In this document: piece after piece, positions 1-5,788 of the stretch
Layout: each line of letters begins with the position of its first letter
Position numbering within the stretch: the first letter of the stretch is position 1
DNA from: Acidobacteriota bacterium
Lineage (GTDB): Bacteria; Acidobacteriota; Thermoanaerobaculia; Thermoanaerobaculales; Thermoanaerobaculaceae
Length of the DNA stretch: 5,788 nt
Direction: 5' to 3'
NCBI GenBank assembly: GCA_021782525.1
Contig: JAJXUY010000124.1
Location: forward strand, 1-5,788
Notes under the pieces: generated by a model
What the model was told of the DNA's origin: nothing
Databases searched by the model: none
Seen by the model: the letters and a program-made list of their open reading frames with translations, nothing else
Program-made: the position numbers and the translations under genes

Positions 1-1104
1 CGGCGGTTGCCCCCCAATAGGTCCCAGGCGCGCTACATCGGGCCGGATCTCGGCCGGCACAACGCGCCTGAGACGTTCACGAGCAAGGTGGACGCCGAAG
101 GCTGGCTCTCCGCCGAACGTCGGCTGATCGAGTGGGACGAATGGTCCCCGCCGGCCCAGCGCCGGGCGAAGCAACTGCACGACGACACCCAGACCCTGCA
201 CACCTACGTCGGCACCTGGCTGCCGGAGCGTGCCGCGGTTCGGGGGTTGAAGCCGAAGACCCTCAGCGAGTACCAGCGCTACCTAGACCGGCTGATCTTC
301 CCGACGCTCGGAGACCTGCGGCTGAAGGACATCACGCCGGCCACCGTCCGCGCCTGGATCGGCAAGCTGAACCCGGCGACGCCACGGCTCAACGAGCACG
401 CCTACACCCTGCTCAAGACGATCTTCGCGACTGCCGTCCAGGACGAATTACTGGACCGCAACCCGTGCCGCGAGCGGATGCGCAGGCCCGTCCGCCACAT
501 CGGGGAGCCGGCCACCCTCGACGAACTGGCCCTGCTGGTCGCCGCAATGCCCGAACGGCTGCGCCTCATGATCGAACTCGCGGCATGGTGCGCCCTGAGG
601 TTCGGGGAGGTCGCCGAGCTCCGCCGCGGTGACATCGACCTGACCAATGGTGTGATCCGGGTGAGCAGAGCCGTCCAGTGGGTCGACGGCACGAAGATCG
701 TCGCCGCCCCGAAGGCCGACAGCGTCCGCGTGGTCGCGTTCCCTCCCCACATCGGCGATGCGATCAAGGAGCACCTTCAGAAGCACGCCCAGTGGGGCAA
801 GGACGGCCTGCTCTTCCCGACCACCCACGGTGAGCAGTACCGGGCGCCCACGTTCCACCAGGCGTACTTCAGGAAGGCCCGGGAGGCCGCCGGACGCCCC
901 GACCTCCGCTTCCATGACCTCCGCCACACTGGAGCCACGATGGCGGCCGCGTCAGGCGCCACGCTGGCGGAGTTGATGCAGCGTCTTGGGCACTCGACCG
1001 TCTCGGCGGCCTTGGCGTATCAGCACGCCGTCGAGGGCTCAGACAAGCGGATCGCCGCGCAACTCTCGCTGATCGCCCTGGCGAGGGACGGTGATGGCCG
1101 CTAG
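1..1104 (+). CDS. int: Tyrosine recombinase / phage-type integrase, 5' end cut by window edge
   Basis: Site-specific recombinase that would integrate and excise a mobile element (integrative element or prophage) by strand exchange through a phosphotyrosine intermediate. The frame is open from base 1. Counting from the TTG at 7, an N-terminal arm-type DNA-binding segment is recognisable (about residues 5-50, with RYIGPD and the AERRLIE stretch), so the real start probably lies just upstream and few residues are missing. A SAM-like core-binding domain follows (about 62-160). The catalytic domain has the full set of active-site residues: R198 (ALRFGE), K236 (APKADS), H303 and R306 (HDLRH), H329 (LGHS) and Y338 (AYQH). 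The protein ends at TAG 1102-1104. Leu148 is encoded by TTA (448-450), rare in such GC-rich DNA. The family call is firm; the element it mobilises and its attachment site cannot be determined from this window. Confidence 0.95.
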   Translation, partial: RRLPPNRSQARYIGPDLGRHNAPETFTSKVDAEGWLSAERRLIEWDEWSPPAQRRAKQLHDDTQTLHTYVGTWLPERAAVRGLKPKTLSEYQRYLDRLIFPTLGDLRLKDITPATVRAWIGKLNPATPRLNEHAYTLLKTIFATAVQDELLDRNPCRERMRRPVRHIGEPATLDELALLVAAMPERLRLMIELAAWCALRFGEVAELRRGDIDLTNGVIRVSRAVQWVDGTKIVAAPKADSVRVVAFPPHIGDAIKEHLQKHAQWGKDGLLFPTTHGEQYRAPTFHQAYFRKAREAAGRPDLRFHDLRHTGATMAAASGATLAELMQRLGHSTVSAALAYQHAVEGSDKRIAAQLSLIALARDGDGR

Positions 1105-1229: not shown

Positions 1230-1937
1230 ATGCATCGTGGGGCAGGGGCTGAGCCCAGGGTCAGCTTCACGGCCGAGACTGACATGGCACCGCTCGTTGA
1301 GCGCTGGCTTGAGACGATTGGCAGCGTGTGTATCGGACGTGAGGTGGAGGTCGGGTTTGGCATCCCCGACCTAGTTGCCGGCGTGGGCGACAGAGCCGCC
1401 CTGCGTAACCGCCGCCGGCAGGCACAGCCAGTCACGCAGTCACTTCAGTTGGCTCTCCTGGATTTCTGTCGAGTGAGCAGGTCTGAATCCGACTTACGAG
1501 AGTGGGCACCTAGCGGCTTTTCCGAGCTCAAGCGCCAAGCGCTTCAACCGCTTATGAAAAGAGAACTAGTGCTCGTGCGGAACGGAAAGTTCCGCGCCCG
1601 AGTTGCCCCGAGGGACCCTTTCGATACGCTCGTAGCAGTAGAGTTGAAACTTGCAGACGCCACCCGCGGTTTGGCACAGGCTCACGCCTACCGCGTGTTT
1701 GCGGACATTTCCTATCTTGCTCTTCCAGCGCGCCGAGTGAGCAGTTCTGTCATGGACCGGGCGCGCTCGATCGGGGTTGGGATCCTAGCCGTGCACCCCG
1801 GCCTCGTGGAGGAAGTCGTCTGTCCCGACCCGGCATCGTTCGCGACCGCCGGCCGTAGACGAATGGCGAGCGAGTATACGTTGGCGGCGCATGCGGACGG
1901 CGCCTCGCGGCTAGCAGGGGCCCCGAAGCGACGTTAG
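1230..1937 (+). CDS. PD-(D/E)XK-type nuclease-like protein with inserted winged-helix-like segment
   Basis: A 235-residue protein, probably a DNA-cleaving enzyme. The core motifs of the PD-(D/E)XK fold are visible: an N-terminal helix with candidate acidic residues E24/E28, GIPDLV with D47 in place of the PD motif, VAVELKL with E138 and K140 as the (D/E)XK motif, and Q150 to Y154 (QAHAY) in the position of the RecB-like QxxxY motif, followed by strand-like YLALP (162-166). Between D47 and E138 lies an extra stretch (about 70-125) that reads as a winged helix: helices, an LxxLxKRxLV pattern and a GKFR turn. The tail is basic (RRR, PKRR). I chose the ATG at 1230 because a candidate leaderless promoter sits exactly upstream; ATG 1284 is an alternative. 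Leu89 is a TTA codon (1494). It converges with the kinase gene, their ends overlapping by 4 bases. The fold assignment is by motif; substrate and family name are unknown. Confidence 0.75.
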   Translation: MHRGAGAEPRVSFTAETDMAPLVERWLETIGSVCIGREVEVGFGIPDLVAGVGDRAALRNRRRQAQPVTQSLQLALLDFCRVSRSESDLREWAPSGFSELKRQALQPLMKRELVLVRNGKFRARVAPRDPFDTLVAVELKLADATRGLAQAHAYRVFADISYLALPARRVSSSVMDRARSIGVGILAVHPGLVEEVVCPDPASFATAGRRRMASEYTLAAHADGASRLAGAPKRR

Positions 1938-4021
1938 GCGAGGACCTCCGCCCACCGCTCCAAGAACGCCCCACTATCCCCGACAATTCGAGGCGGCGGA
2001 AGTGCTCTGTAGAGCGCGGACGCATCCTGAACGAGGTCGCGCAAGTGTCGGATACGCTGGCCTGCCGGAAGGGCGGCCAGCGCGTCAACTTGGTTCCGCT
2101 GAGCGACCAAATTGTGCTGCACAAGGAGCACACGGTCTCTTGTCGTTAGGTCCTCCAAATCCGGGTTGCTACCGAACAGAGCAGCGGCCTGCGGTGTACC
2201 GAGAGCCACGGCTCCCGCATTCGCCTTTCTCATCAACACGTAGGAGTCCACGGCGACCGAGTTAAGTAGTTGAGGCACGTAGATGCGATCCAGAGGGCTC
2301 CAACCCTCCTCCTCGGCTTCCGGCTGAGGAATCATGTTCATCAGGTTGCCGCTCACACCTGTACCCCAACCGCTTGCTCCGAGCGCGAGCAACAGAAGGC
2401 CGCTACTTGCTCGCTTCCCAACGACCACGGAAATACCAGCTTCTCGCAGCACAGTCAAGAGGTCGTGCAACCCACGGAGCACGGCGACATCCGCCAAAGG
2501 GGCGAACGACGCCTGCGGCGATGAGACCAAGAGGTAGAGGGTGGACATCGGCTGCCCCGTTACAGCCGCAAGCAAGACGTCTCTCGATGTCTCCTCCGAC
2601 AGCCAGGAGCTATGGACCGCAATGCCTGTCCATAGCTCGGCCCCCGTACCCAGGTCGAGTGATGTCAATTGATGCTCTGCCTCTGCAGCACACGCTAATG
2701 ACTCATGAATCCAGGACGCCTCACCCTCTCCTGCATAGAAGTAGGGTGTGATGACTGCGTCGGGTGAGGATTCGAGTACGTGATGAAGCACGGCCGCACA
2801 ATAGGTTCCGCGAGCAGTGTCGTCGGAGAATCCCGTCAGTCGCGGCCCCTGACCGTACGGCAATCGCATGACTTGCTTCGGCCTGAACTCCTCAGGGCTC
2901 CGCGAGTAATGGGTGACCGGGTCCACCACTGACATCGCCCCGATCTCCCTCGCTGAAGCGATGAACTCGGCCACTCGCCGGCCAGCGCGGATGTCGACGA
3001 TGACACCATGTGGGCCAATGTCCCGTAGGCCATCGCCCTCCGCGAAGTTCTTGACTTGCGCCAAGTTTACGAAGAATCTTTGAGATGCCGCCTCGCCCAA
3101 CTGGGAACCTTCGATAGCCAATAGCGCCCGATCCACGTCTGCGAGGAGGTCCGCCGGCCGCAAGTAGCGGCGGTGAGGTTGTTTCTGCAGCATTCGCTCG
3201 ATCACGTCTGCAGCGACGCTAGGGATGTTGGGGTCGATGGCGCGGACGGGCTGGGGTGTCTGGCGTAACGGTGCCAGCCACCGATCCTGAAGACTTGGGG
3301 CGAAGAAGGGCTGGACGTTCGTGAGGAGCGTGTAGCCCAAGGCCCCGATCACAAACTGGTCGCTCCGCCAATCGCCATGAGTGGGCGTCGACCGCACCTG
3401 CTCGGGACTCATCCACCCGGGGGTCCCTGGCGTCGGAAGGTTCGTCAGCGTCTCATCATCCATGTGCCGCGCAAGCCCAAGATCGACAATTACGGGCGCC
3501 CCGTTCGGCCGGATGATGATGTTGCCTGGCGACAAGTCTCGGTGAGCCGTGCGTTGAGCCCAGATAGCAGAGGCCGCATCAACAAGTGCGCGAACGAGTT
3601 GCATTGCTTCCGGGACCGTGAAGACCTGCCCCCCCGCAAGGCAGTCGCGAAGAGAGTGACCCTCGACGAATGCCATCTTGATCCATTTGAACGTGAGGCC
3701 CGCGCGTTGGTAATCGCCGTGGTCGATGAAGTCCACCACGCCAGGGTGATTCACTCGTTGAAGGGCGGCCAACTCCCGATCTACTCGAGCAGCTTCGGAT
3801 AGACCCGGGTCTATCACCTTCAATGCGTATCGCCCCTCGCTCGCAAGCACCTTGAAGGTGCAGGCGAACCCCCCGGTGCCGAGGTGCGAGAGGGAAGCGT
3901 CGGATGGAGAGATCTCGCGTGCGACATCTTCGAGAATGGTCCGGTCAGCGGGCATGGTTTCTTGCTCCGAGGCGAGTTGGGGCAACAGCGGTTCCACCTT
4001 CAACGCGAACGTATCAGTCAC
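1934..4021 (-). CDS. Ser/Thr protein kinase fused to a C-terminal putative TIM-barrel domain
   Basis: A 695-residue, two-part protein with no evident membrane segment, so probably cytoplasmic. The N-terminal kinase domain (about 44-300) looks active: glycine loop LGTGGF (47-52), ATP lysine K68 (YALKV), helix-C E83, HRD catalytic loop H160-R161-D162 with N167, metal-binding D180 in DLG (usual DFG), GTPGWMSPEQ activation segment (199-208) and D221. The loop reads HRDLSPGN; the lysine usual in Ser/Thr kinases is Ser164. Residues about 335-560 alternate hydrophobic strands and helices (GVIVDI, MSVVDP, DAVITPYF, ELWTGIAV, STLYLLV, ISVVVGK, LLLLALGASGWGTG), which suggests a (beta/alpha) barrel; I cannot name its family. 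A helical tail ends with FLERWAEVLA. The start is either GTG 4021 (AAGG 6 bases upstream) or ATG 3955 (GGAG at 3965-3968, 9 bases upstream), which would drop 22 residues outside the kinase core. Leu252 and Leu442 are TTA codons. Kinase call firm; C-terminal role unknown. Confidence 0.88.
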   Translation of the reverse strand: MTDTFALKVEPLLPQLASEQETMPADRTILEDVAREISPSDASLSHLGTGGFACTFKVLASEGRYALKVIDPGLSEAARVDRELAALQRVNHPGVVDFIDHGDYQRAGLTFKWIKMAFVEGHSLRDCLAGGQVFTVPEAMQLVRALVDAASAIWAQRTAHRDLSPGNIIIRPNGAPVIVDLGLARHMDDETLTNLPTPGTPGWMSPEQVRSTPTHGDWRSDQFVIGALGYTLLTNVQPFFAPSLQDRWLAPLRQTPQPVRAIDPNIPSVAADVIERMLQKQPHRRYLRPADLLADVDRALLAIEGSQLGEAASQRFFVNLAQVKNFAEGDGLRDIGPHGVIVDIRAGRRVAEFIASAREIGAMSVVDPVTHYSRSPEEFRPKQVMRLPYGQGPRLTGFSDDTARGTYCAAVLHHVLESSPDAVITPYFYAGEGEASWIHESLACAAEAEHQLTSLDLGTGAELWTGIAVHSSWLSEETSRDVLLAAVTGQPMSTLYLLVSSPQASFAPLADVAVLRGLHDLLTVLREAGISVVVGKRASSGLLLLALGASGWGTGVSGNLMNMIPQPEAEEEGWSPLDRIYVPQLLNSVAVDSYVLMRKANAGAVALGTPQAAALFGSNPDLEDLTTRDRVLLVQHNLVAQRNQVDALAALPAGQRIRHLRDLVQDASALYRALPPPRIVGDSGAFLERWAEVLA
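3965..3968 (-). promoter_or_regulatory. Ribosome binding site for the alternative kinase start at 3955
   Basis: On the - strand GGAG lies 9 bases before an ATG at 3955-3953. It is a better Shine-Dalgarno match than the AAGG (4028-4031) before GTG 4021. The kinase may therefore begin at Met23, giving 673 residues; the kinase fold itself is not affected. Confidence 0.4.
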
Positions 4022-4122
4022 AAGAGGCCTTGGGGCAAACGTAATTGGCTCGCCCGTCGAGCGGAAGGGTTACCCCTACTAGAGCACTACCCGGGTGATC
4101 GTCCTGGCTGACGTCAGTTCAG
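4022..4122. promoter_or_regulatory. Kinase upstream region with clustered palindromes
   Basis: About 100 bases between the kinase start and the IS left end. It contains GGGTTACCC (4067-4075, arms of 4), ACCCGGGT (4089-4096, perfect), and CTGACGTCAG (4108-4117, perfect 10-base palindrome), plus TACCC twice (4071 and 4088). Such sites could bind a dimeric regulator of the kinase gene. A possible -10 box for the kinase is TACGTT on the - strand (4038-4043), but its -35 partner is poor. The IS ends this region, so part of the original upstream sequence has been moved away. Confidence 0.35.
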
Positions 4123-4140
4123 CCTGAATCCGCCGAGCCT
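4123..4140 (+). repeat. IS left terminal inverted repeat
   Basis: CCTGAATCCGCCGAGCCT matches the reverse complement of 5741-5758 with mismatches only at positions 5 and 15. Similarity fades after position 18. The last two flanking bases (AG) also agree with the other side, so the exact terminus may be off by a base or two. Confidence 0.85.
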
Positions 4141-4158
4141 GTTGGGGTGTCAGAATGG

Positions 4159-4228
4159 CGAATGCTCCTGTGACAAGCGAGGATAGGACTTACCACAGCT
4201 CTATTCCACGGCTTGACAGGAGCACTCG
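4159..4228 (+). promoter_or_regulatory. Hairpin that buries the transposase ribosome binding site
   Basis: TGCTCCTGT (4163-4171) pairs perfectly with ACAGGAGCA (4216-4224). Past a 2-base bulge, CAAG (4174-4177) pairs with CTTG (4212-4215), and outside a single mismatch CGA (4159-4161) pairs with TCG (4226-4228). That gives 16 base pairs around a 34-base loop. The 3' arm contains the AGGAG Shine-Dalgarno sequence and ends 2 bases before the GTG start. In other IS families such structures block translation when transcription enters from outside the element; the same role is inferred here. Confidence 0.6.
4218..4222 (+). promoter_or_regulatory. Ribosome binding site fixing the transposase start at GTG 4231
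   Basis: AGGAG lies 8 bases before GTG 4231, ideal spacing. The longer frame from TTG 4213 would place its start inside this site and is not credible. Confidence 0.85.
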
Positions 4229-4230
4229 TA

Positions 4231-5604
4231 GTGAAAGTGTGCCACAGCTTTGAGCCCGCGTTCGATGACCCGACTCTGGTGTCGTTCGGTGGGCTGCCCG
4301 CGGTGATGGCCTTGGCCGAACAAGCCGGCCTGCACCACCTGGTCGGCGAGCACGTGAGCGTGCCCGGGACGGCGGGGTCGAACGCCGCGATCAAGGTGTC
4401 CGGGCTGGTGGCGGGGATGGTCGTCGGCGCGGACTCGATCTCGGATCTGGATGTGCTGCGGCATGGCGGGATGGGCAGGGTGTTCGACGGGCTCCGCGCC
4501 CCGACGACGCTGGGCACGCATCTACGAGGTTACCGGTTCGGGCATGTCCGGCAGGTGGATGCGGTCGCTTCCCGGCTGCTGGCCAACCTCGCCCGGTTGT
4601 CGCCGATCCTGCACGGTGCGGACCAGCTCGTCTACGTGGATGTGGATGACACGATCCGTGAGACCCACGGCTACCGCAAGCAGGGCGTCGCCTACGGCTA
4701 CTCCGGGGTGAAAGGCCTCAACGCCCAGGTCGCCACCGTCTCCACGATCACCGCGGCTCCGGTGATCGCCGCGACCCGGCTACGCAAAGGCAACGTGGCC
4801 TCCGCGCACGGGTCGGCCCGGCTGATCACCGACACCCTCGCCACTCTCCGCCGGGCCACCACCCCGGGGGTGGTTGTCGTGCGCGCCGACAGCGCGTACT
4901 TCACTCACCAGGTGATCTCGGCGATCAGCCGTGGTGGGGCGTTGTTCTCGGTCACCGCGAGGATGAACCCGGCTGTGACCAAGGCGATCGCCACCATCGA
5001 GGAGCAGGCGTGGACGCCGATCCGTTACCCGCAGGCCATCTTCGACGAGGACCAGCAGTGCTGGATCTCCGACGCCGAGGTCGCCGAAACCACGTTCACC
5101 GCGTTCACCTCCCGCCGCCAGGGCGATCACGTGACCGCCCGGCTGATCGTGCGCCGGGTGAAGCGCCTCAACCCCCAGGCGAAGGTCCAGGGCGAGTTGC
5201 TGCCCGGCTGGCGTTACCACGCGGTGTTCACCGATTCGACCTTTGGCCTGGTCGAGGCCGAAGCCGCGCATCGGGACCACGCGATCATCGAGTCGGTGTT
5301 CGCGGACCTGAAACACGGGCCGCTGGCCCACGCCCCGTCCGGCCTGTTCACCGCGAACGCCGCCTGGCTGGCGCTGGCCGGGATCGCGTTCAACCTCACC
5401 CGGGCTGCCGCACGCCTCACCGGCACAACCCTCGGCAAGGCCCGTACCGCGACCGTGCGTCGCACCATCATCGCCGTGGCCGCCCGGGTCGCGAACCGGG
5501 CCCGGCACTGGATCCTGCACCTGCCCCGCGACTGGCCTTGGCAGCAGCAACTCGCCGCCCTCTACGACACGACCATGCCCCAGCTCTCGGCCGCCGGACC
5601 CTGA
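4231..5604 (+). CDS. tnp: IS1380-family transposase (DDE)
   Basis: Cuts and joins the ends of its own insertion sequence. The 457-residue protein starts at GTG 4231 (Met-Lys-Val-Cys-His), chosen from the AGGAG at ideal spacing. Family hallmarks are in order: an N-terminal region with LRHGGMGRVF (about 76-85), VDVDDT (136-141) carrying the first catalytic Asp, GYSGVKGLNA, a RLRKGN segment, RADSAY (218-223) with the second catalytic Asp (220), and HAIIESVFADLK (about 350-361) with the catalytic Glu (354), then NAAWLALAGIAFNLTR. All three acidic positions are present and there is no frameshift or internal stop, so the enzyme is probably functional. Its base composition is strongly GC-rich and it has no TTA codons, unlike the kinase and nuclease genes to its left. 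Translation is probably damped by the leader hairpin that covers its ribosome binding site. Confidence 0.96.
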   Translation: MKVCHSFEPAFDDPTLVSFGGLPAVMALAEQAGLHHLVGEHVSVPGTAGSNAAIKVSGLVAGMVVGADSISDLDVLRHGGMGRVFDGLRAPTTLGTHLRGYRFGHVRQVDAVASRLLANLARLSPILHGADQLVYVDVDDTIRETHGYRKQGVAYGYSGVKGLNAQVATVSTITAAPVIAATRLRKGNVASAHGSARLITDTLATLRRATTPGVVVVRADSAYFTHQVISAISRGGALFSVTARMNPAVTKAIATIEEQAWTPIRYPQAIFDEDQQCWISDAEVAETTFTAFTSRRQGDHVTARLIVRRVKRLNPQAKVQGELLPGWRYHAVFTDSTFGLVEAEAAHRDHAIIESVFADLKHGPLAHAPSGLFTANAAWLALAGIAFNLTRAAARLTGTTLGKARTATVRRTIIAVAARVANRARHWILHLPRDWPWQQQLAALYDTTMPQLSAAGP

Positions 5605-5740
5605 CCGGGCATCCCCACTGTCGGCACACGAGCGAGGAACCCCAGTGGAAAAGCCGGGCAGACCGGCGGATCTCCCACGCCCACCCACGAAATCACCCGG
5701 GAGGCCCGCAGGAAATCGCGGGAATCCTCACTCACGAATA
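5605..5740 (+). other. Non-coding 3' segment of the IS
   Basis: About 135 bases between the transposase stop and the right terminal repeat. I see no gene. Two short inverted repeats are present: CCACTG near 5615 with CAGTGG near 5643, and CCCGC (5705-5709) with GCGGG (5718-5722) around an 8-base loop. The latter could act as a T-less terminator for the transposase, but support is weak. Confidence 0.45.
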
Positions 5741-5758
5741 AGGGTCGGCGGATCCAGG
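5741..5758 (-). repeat. IS right terminal inverted repeat
   Basis: Read on the - strand it is CCTGGATCCGCCGACCCT, the partner of 4123-4140 (16 of 18 identical). It marks the outer end of the element. Confidence 0.85.
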
Positions 5759-5788
5759 CTCAGCCACCCCTGCATGGTTGCTGCGGGC
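5759..5788. other. Flanking DNA right of the IS
   Basis: Thirty bases that begin with CTCAG, nearly the same as the TTCAG left of the IS. Too short to assign to a gene. This is the sequence that lay upstream of the kinase region before the IS arrived. Confidence 0.5.

Follow-up and report, generated by a model that had tools for sequence, protein, structure and literature searches.

A Ser/Thr kinase fused to a predicted TGT-fold barrel and linked to a predicted DNA-cutting protein: an apparently undescribed and possibly defensive gene module

Introduction

Bacterial Ser/Thr kinases usually carry PASTA, TPR, WD40 or transmembrane sensor modules, and a kinase with a long, unassigned C-terminal region raises the question of what that region does. 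Such a gene lies in a contig of 5,788 nucleotides from an Acidobacteriota bacterium (JAJXUY010000124.1), the whole of which we refer to as the window. An earlier reading of the sequence (the original prediction) proposed that this kinase, coupled to a TIM barrel and placed beside a nuclease and an integrase, could be a sensor or effector of an undescribed conflict system. Here we report that the C-terminal region is predicted to adopt the fold of tRNA-guanine transglycosylase (TGT), that it recurs across distant prokaryotes, and that it is linked to a small protein of the predicted PD-(D/E)XK type, which we call ExK. Kinase, TGT-fold barrel and predicted DNA-cutting protein appear to form an undescribed and possibly defensive gene module.

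Results and Discussion

The Kinase-Barrel Gene and Its Kinase Domain

The predicted open reading frame (ORF) is present on the minus strand at positions 1934-4021 and encodes 695 residues when extended mechanically to a GTG at 4021. The true start is probably the ATG at 3955 (M23), which gives a gene at 1934-3955 with a product of 673 amino acids, because the consensus of the homologues begins at M23, 12 of the 63 homologues are exactly 673 amino acids long and a GGAG lies 9 nucleotides 5' of this ATG. Pfam recognizes a protein kinase at residues 44-286 (positions 3164-3892, minus strand; 7e-29) and has no match in the remainder of the protein. The full catalytic set read earlier from the sequence, K68, E83, D162, N167 and D180, is conserved, each residue being shared by 90% or more of the 63 aligned proteins, and to judge from these residues the kinase appears equipped as an active enzyme. 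The catalytic loop of kinases usually reads HRDLKPxN; that of the window reads HRDLSPGN, and HRDLS instead of HRDLK also occurs in the kinases of four related loci (L066, L067, L068 and L078). The domain is PknB-like (28% identity, Foldseek 2e-16). The protein differs from PASTA kinases of the PknB type, whose profile scores 120 bits against a cut-off of 450 over the kinase part only, the C-terminal part being the barrel.

The C-Terminal Domain Has a Predicted TGT Fold Without a Conserved TGT Asp Pair

The C-terminal region of about 390 residues (residues 308-695, positions 1937-3100, minus strand) had been described as unlike the usual modules of bacterial kinases, and no Pfam or PASTA profile match reaches into it. 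In the predicted structure it forms a barrel, as had been proposed for residues 339-554, with a slightly larger extent than originally drawn: the strands comprise residues 339-343, 363-367, 422-424, 462-470, 494-500, 531-535, 551-554 and 579-582, an extra strand (315-320) lies ahead of the barrel, and helices follow it up to residue 694. The loose likeness to TGT-type barrels that had been suggested proved apt, in that the predicted structure shows the TGT (beta/alpha)8 fold with its C-terminal subdomain. The accompanying expectation of conserved active-site residues did not hold for the TGT catalytic Asp pair. According to an excerpt of PMC6165067, TGT uses two Asp residues; this pair (Asp102 and Asp280 in Z. 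mobilis) was not conserved in the alignment columns of the barrels, a comparison that a relocated nucleophile might escape. Of the acidic columns present in the window, D367 alone attains 75% identity in a sample of 57 barrels, and the equivalent position is Ser in the barrel of L036.

At the sequence level, neither the window domain nor the relatives scanned matched the TGT profile (PF01702), nothing significant was obtained from Pfam, a PDB sequence search or hhalign, and hhalign of the barrel against 11 TGTs gave probabilities below 1%. Because these searches found nothing significant, the link to TGT rests on the fold and on a zinc-like motif that some relatives carry. The window barrel lacks this zinc site (CxCxxC plus His); it is present in one of 63 proteins of the window clade, in one of 65 proteins of stand-alone length and in 21 of 23 Bacillota-type proteins. 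When the L036 barrel was aligned as a single sequence, it matched a stretch of TGT with an E value of 0.085, which was not used as evidence. The window barrel shares its predicted fold with TGT (PF01702; QTRT1/QTRT2) and differs from it in having no profile match, no conserved Asp pair and no zinc motif. We conclude that the TGT-fold barrel has probably lost TGT chemistry.

These residues bear on an alternative of the Dpd restriction-modification type, in which the barrel would be an active base-exchange enzyme marking host DNA or RNA, ExK would cut unmarked DNA and the kinase would regulate the system. Part of PMC12839542 describes TGT homologues within Dpd and BREX-related systems. Having the fold of TGT, our barrel presumably shares it with DpdA as well. 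The excerpt on Dpd and BREX also describes capture systems related to Dpd and BREX in which, likewise, a TGT-fold protein works beside nucleases in a conflict setting (PMC12839542). The partners differ, however, being here a Ser/Thr kinase and a small PD-(D/E)XK protein, and DpdB/C, PglZ, HerA, GNAT and 7-deazaguanine genes were not noticed in the window or in the listed flanks, which were short and of which selected genes were scanned. With one well-kept acidic column where TGT needs two Asp, Ser at that column in L036 and no 7-deazaguanine gene noticed in the loci read, we consider a Dpd-type system very unlikely.

Relatives of the Barrel

The recurrence of the fusion, which had been proposed as a check, was readily apparent: the C-terminal domain recurs in 63 proteins (the window's included), 61 of which carry the kinase Pfam domain. 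Residues 315-695 alone served to find and score these proteins, which are 32-100% identical and in 57 cases measure 650-700 amino acids. A protein search with the barrel only yielded 91 proteins. The largest class, 65 proteins of 380-460 amino acids, includes several named as haloarchaea; the 23 proteins of at least 570 amino acids are kinase fusions, with Bacillus, Priestia, Peribacillus, Paenibacillus, Brevibacillus and Gorillibacterium among the names, and three proteins are shorter. The barrels of Priestia and Natribaculum are recognizably homologous by BLASTP (8e-9), and the Actinomycetota, Bacillota-type and haloarchaeal-type barrel families align with one another at hhalign probabilities of 98.5-100%. 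In a tree of 62 barrels, with long branches and an arbitrary root, the fused forms of Bacillota type and of Actinomycetota did not group together. Patterns of the barrel relatives matched in viral contigs, none of which passed tblastn; in phage records the Natribaculum barrel had no match and the window protein matched in its kinase region only. A phage origin of the barrel gained no support from these searches.

ExK, the Convergent Neighbour

The ExK gene (positions 1230-1937, plus strand) encodes 235 amino acids from the ATG at 1230, the mechanical ORF beginning at 1170, and converges with the kinase gene so that their 3' ends overlap by 4 nucleotides. No significant match for ExK was found in Pfam, PADLOC or NCBIfam, and no meaningful one in a PDB sequence search. 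In an alignment of four relatives, E36, D67, E158, K160 and Q170 are invariant, a series of PD-(D/E)XK type, and the N-terminal E is also invariant in an eight-row alignment. Across all 22 ExK proteins examined the E-x-K, the Q and a preceding D are kept, the D being chosen by a loose pattern and by eye. By its sequence, ExK thus carries what appears to be the PD-(D/E)XK motif series D...ExK...Q. An insertion within ExK is likely a winged helix; L021 lacks it, as do the short versions of ExK encoded in L069-L071 and L079. Since the motif residues are kept everywhere although the insertion is missing in some loci, cleavage would be the more likely job of ExK. In the gene table used for these plasmids, ExK is unannotated at L001:14044-14772 and L021:5815-6324, as is the whole Natribaculum module, ExK included, at L020:5710-8466.

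Kinase, Barrel and ExK Are Linked across Genomes

The same fusion lies tail to tail with the same ExK on plasmids of Kocuria rosea (NZ_CP127859.1) and Priestia megaterium (NZ_CP140272.1), and on plasmids of the haloarchaeon Natribaculum breve and of Polaromonas naphthalenivorans the kinase and the barrel are separate proteins, encoded consecutively after ExK on one strand. Judged by identical length of the longest contig, at least 21 of the 63 kinase-barrel clusters (window included) share a contig with an ExK cluster, compared with 0, 0, 0, 0, 0 and 1 in six shifted controls, and so do at least 6 of 24 Bacillota-type rows; these counts are lower bounds, each cluster being represented by its longest contig.

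We then turned to scans of genomes, in which the best candidates per genome were scored and all rates are consequently lower bounds. A full-length profile gave kinase cross-hits besides genomes G001 and G002, and separate barrel and ExK profiles were therefore used; the full-length scan had detected no complete member among 398 genomes from the family in which ExK later gave 10 loci in 378. A scan of Pseudomonadota (0 of 398 genomes) had no positive control and is uninformative. The ExK profile by itself detected ExK in two sets of genomes: 10 of 378 from the family to which G001 belongs, and 6 of 201 from the order that includes G754. The barrel gene is directly beside ExK in all 16 of these loci, accompanied by the kinase in 12. 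Among the first ten loci, the barrels were detected by hmmsearch in seven and by hhalign, at 96-98%, in L067, L068 and L070. The set from the order of G754 consists of four loci at places already seen and two new ones, L078, whose barrel was found only with a profile widened by members of L062-L071, and L079, whose barrel was found with the first profile at 1e-4. Both profiles together place an adjacent barrel and ExK in 4 of the 201 genomes (hypergeometric 8e-6); G754 is not independent because its genes are in both profiles, and without it three remain (1.5e-4).

The barrel profiles in turn led to nine loci, three in 396 Actinomycetota genomes and seven in 201 genomes of one order, with G754 in both. 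Four of them contain kinase and ExK (L036, L046, L047, L048), three a RES-Xre pair (L045, L049, L050) and two neither (L037, L051). Where a related kinase occurs without the barrel, in the four loci L007, L008, L009 and L019 (the last of 3.8 kb only), no ExK match was seen. As far as seen, ExK accompanies the barrel; the barrel does not require ExK, and the reverse linkage is weaker.

Architectures and Exchanged Partners

Kinase, barrel and ExK occur together in 17 loci (the window, L001, L002, L020, L021, L036, L046-L048, L062-L068 and L078). Three of these have a kinase-barrel fusion and the other 14 have two separate genes; the proportion depends on the route to the loci, as protein searches yielded mostly fusions in bacteria. 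ExK is tail to tail with the barrel in 14 and first in the operon in three (L020, L021 and L047). All 14 split kinases retain HRD...N, a Lys and the DFG Asp, the DFG reading DPG in L066 and L078 and DMG in L063. In L006, ExK and barrel are seen and the contig ends within the barrel. L005 (9120-11339) has no barrel and no ExK; the likeness of its kinase ORF extends to about residue 287, and at that point the opposite strand carries a transposase-like ORF.

Kinase-less operons (L069:3797-6582, L070:3672-6469, L071:3939-6762 and L079:3305-6340) consist of a small ORF, a membrane-like ORF, a short ExK without the insertion and the barrel. The small ORF is weakly Panacea-like in L070 and L071 (E 0.03-0.04, under the Pfam cut-off) and has no Panacea match in L069; the Panacea label in L079 and every membrane-like label come from inspection by eye. 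In a third arrangement the barrel is divergent from an Xre antitoxin and a RES toxin (L045:612-2789, L049:3023-5205 and L050:5108-7283), possibly as a three-part toxin-antitoxin module. As a set, the barrels of L045, L049, L050, L037 and L051 align with the kinase-linked families at hhalign probabilities of 98.5-98.9%. The L051 barrel (2264-6922), without kinase or ExK, is tail to tail with a 425-amino-acid ORF that has no Pfam family, near a SIR2_2 gene.

HipA-type kinases act as toxins, and the partners just described invite the alternative that the whole is a kinase toxin-antitoxin module, with the kinase as toxin in the manner of HipA or KKP, ExK with its winged helix as regulator or antitoxin, and the barrel as neutraliser or ligand binder. 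The likely winged helix-turn-helix (wHTH) insertion in ExK, the barrel relatives beside RES-Xre pairs and the position of the module beside AbiE in L048 are all in keeping with this. So is KKP, a mobile Ser/Thr kinase module defending through kinase output, whose kinases, as far as the excerpt of PMC11341870 goes, show that a toxin role in a defence module is possible. However, ExK keeps its nuclease motif in 22 of 22 proteins yet has lost the insertion in some, the opposite of what a pure DNA-binding antitoxin would do, and the kinase is missing in 4 of the 16 loci found through ExK. We therefore rate a toxin-antitoxin role for the module as rather unlikely.

A Proposed Mechanism with the Barrel as Sensor

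We favour instead, with about an even chance of being right, a mobile module built around a TGT-fold barrel that has probably lost TGT chemistry, with ExK and, here, a fused Ser/Thr kinase, in which the barrel would be the sensor, the kinase the switch and ExK the effector. The sensor role is given to the barrel because it is constant while its partners change, from kinase plus ExK, through the weakly Panacea-like and membrane-like ORFs with ExK, to RES-Xre. In this mechanism the barrel would restrain the attached kinase and have as its ligand a nucleobase, some modified nucleic acid or a feature of tRNA. Invading DNA or infection would alter the ligand of the barrel and so turn on the kinase, which would phosphorylate ExK or a host target. 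ExK, steered by the inserted winged helix where present, would then cut DNA, leading to restriction or growth arrest. The order from barrel to kinase to ExK is our inference. The sensor or effector role in an undescribed conflict system that had been suggested at the outset gains support from the recurrent linkage, the exchanged partners and the defence or toxin-antitoxin neighbours of some relatives.

Barrel and ExK, both without a Pfam model match, are linked on both plasmids and chromosomes, in Actinomycetota, Bacillota, a betaproteobacterium and a haloarchaeon. If the barrel is the sensor, it would be a common recognition part for kinase and RES-type modules, its candidate ligands would be nucleobases or tRNA, and it would mark a second route, besides Dpd, of the TGT fold into conflict. 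More tentatively still, and with the chances somewhat against it, the retired TGT fold may be a general sensor of prokaryotic immunity, reading a nucleobase or nucleic-acid signal with at least three outputs in bacteria and haloarchaea. With both split and fused versions occurring in nature, the module lends itself readily to testing.

Comparison with Known Systems

A search of the open-licence literature, bioRxiv excluded, gave no system of kinase, TGT fold and PD-(D/E)XK protein among the matches listed. In PADLOC, the kinase domain scores against the kinases of PD-T4-6 (9e-47) and MADS Mad6 (6e-36). The PD-T4-6 match ends soon after the kinase domain instead of covering the whole length; the Mad6-type match reaches 99 bits against a cut-off of 460, and the other genes of the window are ExK, an integrase and a transposase. 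Barrel and ExK have no significant family match there (best E 0.011). Compared with KKP, the window lacks a second kinase or phosphatase, and barrel and ExK are not named in the part of the KKP description that we cite (PMC11341870). A likeness to KKP exists in Natribaculum, where a gene for a calcineurin-like phosphoesterase (metallophosphoesterase; L020:8488-9177) directly follows the barrel, as a phosphatase might follow a kinase module. CapK/CapS also pairs a kinase with a wHTH protein beside immune operons, CapK being a GHKL kinase and CapS a STAS-wHTH repressor in the excerpt of PMC13373217, whereas our kinase belongs to the Pkinase family and ExK bears a nuclease motif. We regard the module as a putative kinase-bearing conflict module whose parts differ from those of PD-T4-6, MADS, PglW, KKP and CapK.

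Genomic Surroundings and Mobility

The pairing of a nuclease and an integrase as neighbours, on which the conflict proposal had partly drawn, is borne out in the window by the predicted PD-(D/E)XK-type ExK and an adjoining tyrosine recombinase/integrase (positions 1-1104, plus strand, 5' end cut by the window). The integrase suggests a mobile setting, and integrases or recombinases also lie near L001, L047 and L049. In Kocuria, an annotated cluster of methyltransferase, S subunit and helicase lies about 5 kb off the module; Natribaculum has a DrmMI/type IIG-like enzyme near it, and L048 is flanked by AbiEi/AbiEii. Near L047 are Mrr, an HNH enzyme and a SIR2 match that is weak (1.7e-5). The family-library neighbour scan covered loci other than L062-L068 and L078; L036 and L046 had no recognised defence neighbour among the genes scanned or read.

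Neighbours that look ordinary by eye in some loci (L046, L062), together with the PknB-like kinase domain, would suit a chromosomal signalling kinase with a metabolite-binding barrel, acting outside conflict. Matches to the barrel profile are patchy, though (3 of 396 Actinomycetota genomes), plasmid copies occur in four phyla, the window has an integrase and an insertion sequence alongside, and restriction or Abi genes neighbour some loci, all of which makes a signalling role distinctly unlikely.

The remaining feature of the window is an insertion sequence of the IS1380 family (positions 4121-5760, plus strand), with a transposase at 4213-5604 and 20-nucleotide inverted repeats (4121-4140 and 5741-5760) that are 90% complementary. 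No target-site duplication was evident by eye, and a promoter and terminator scan gave nothing above chance. We do not think that the element is part of the module; it sits upstream of the kinase gene, about 165 bases from the probable start, and may affect expression of that gene.
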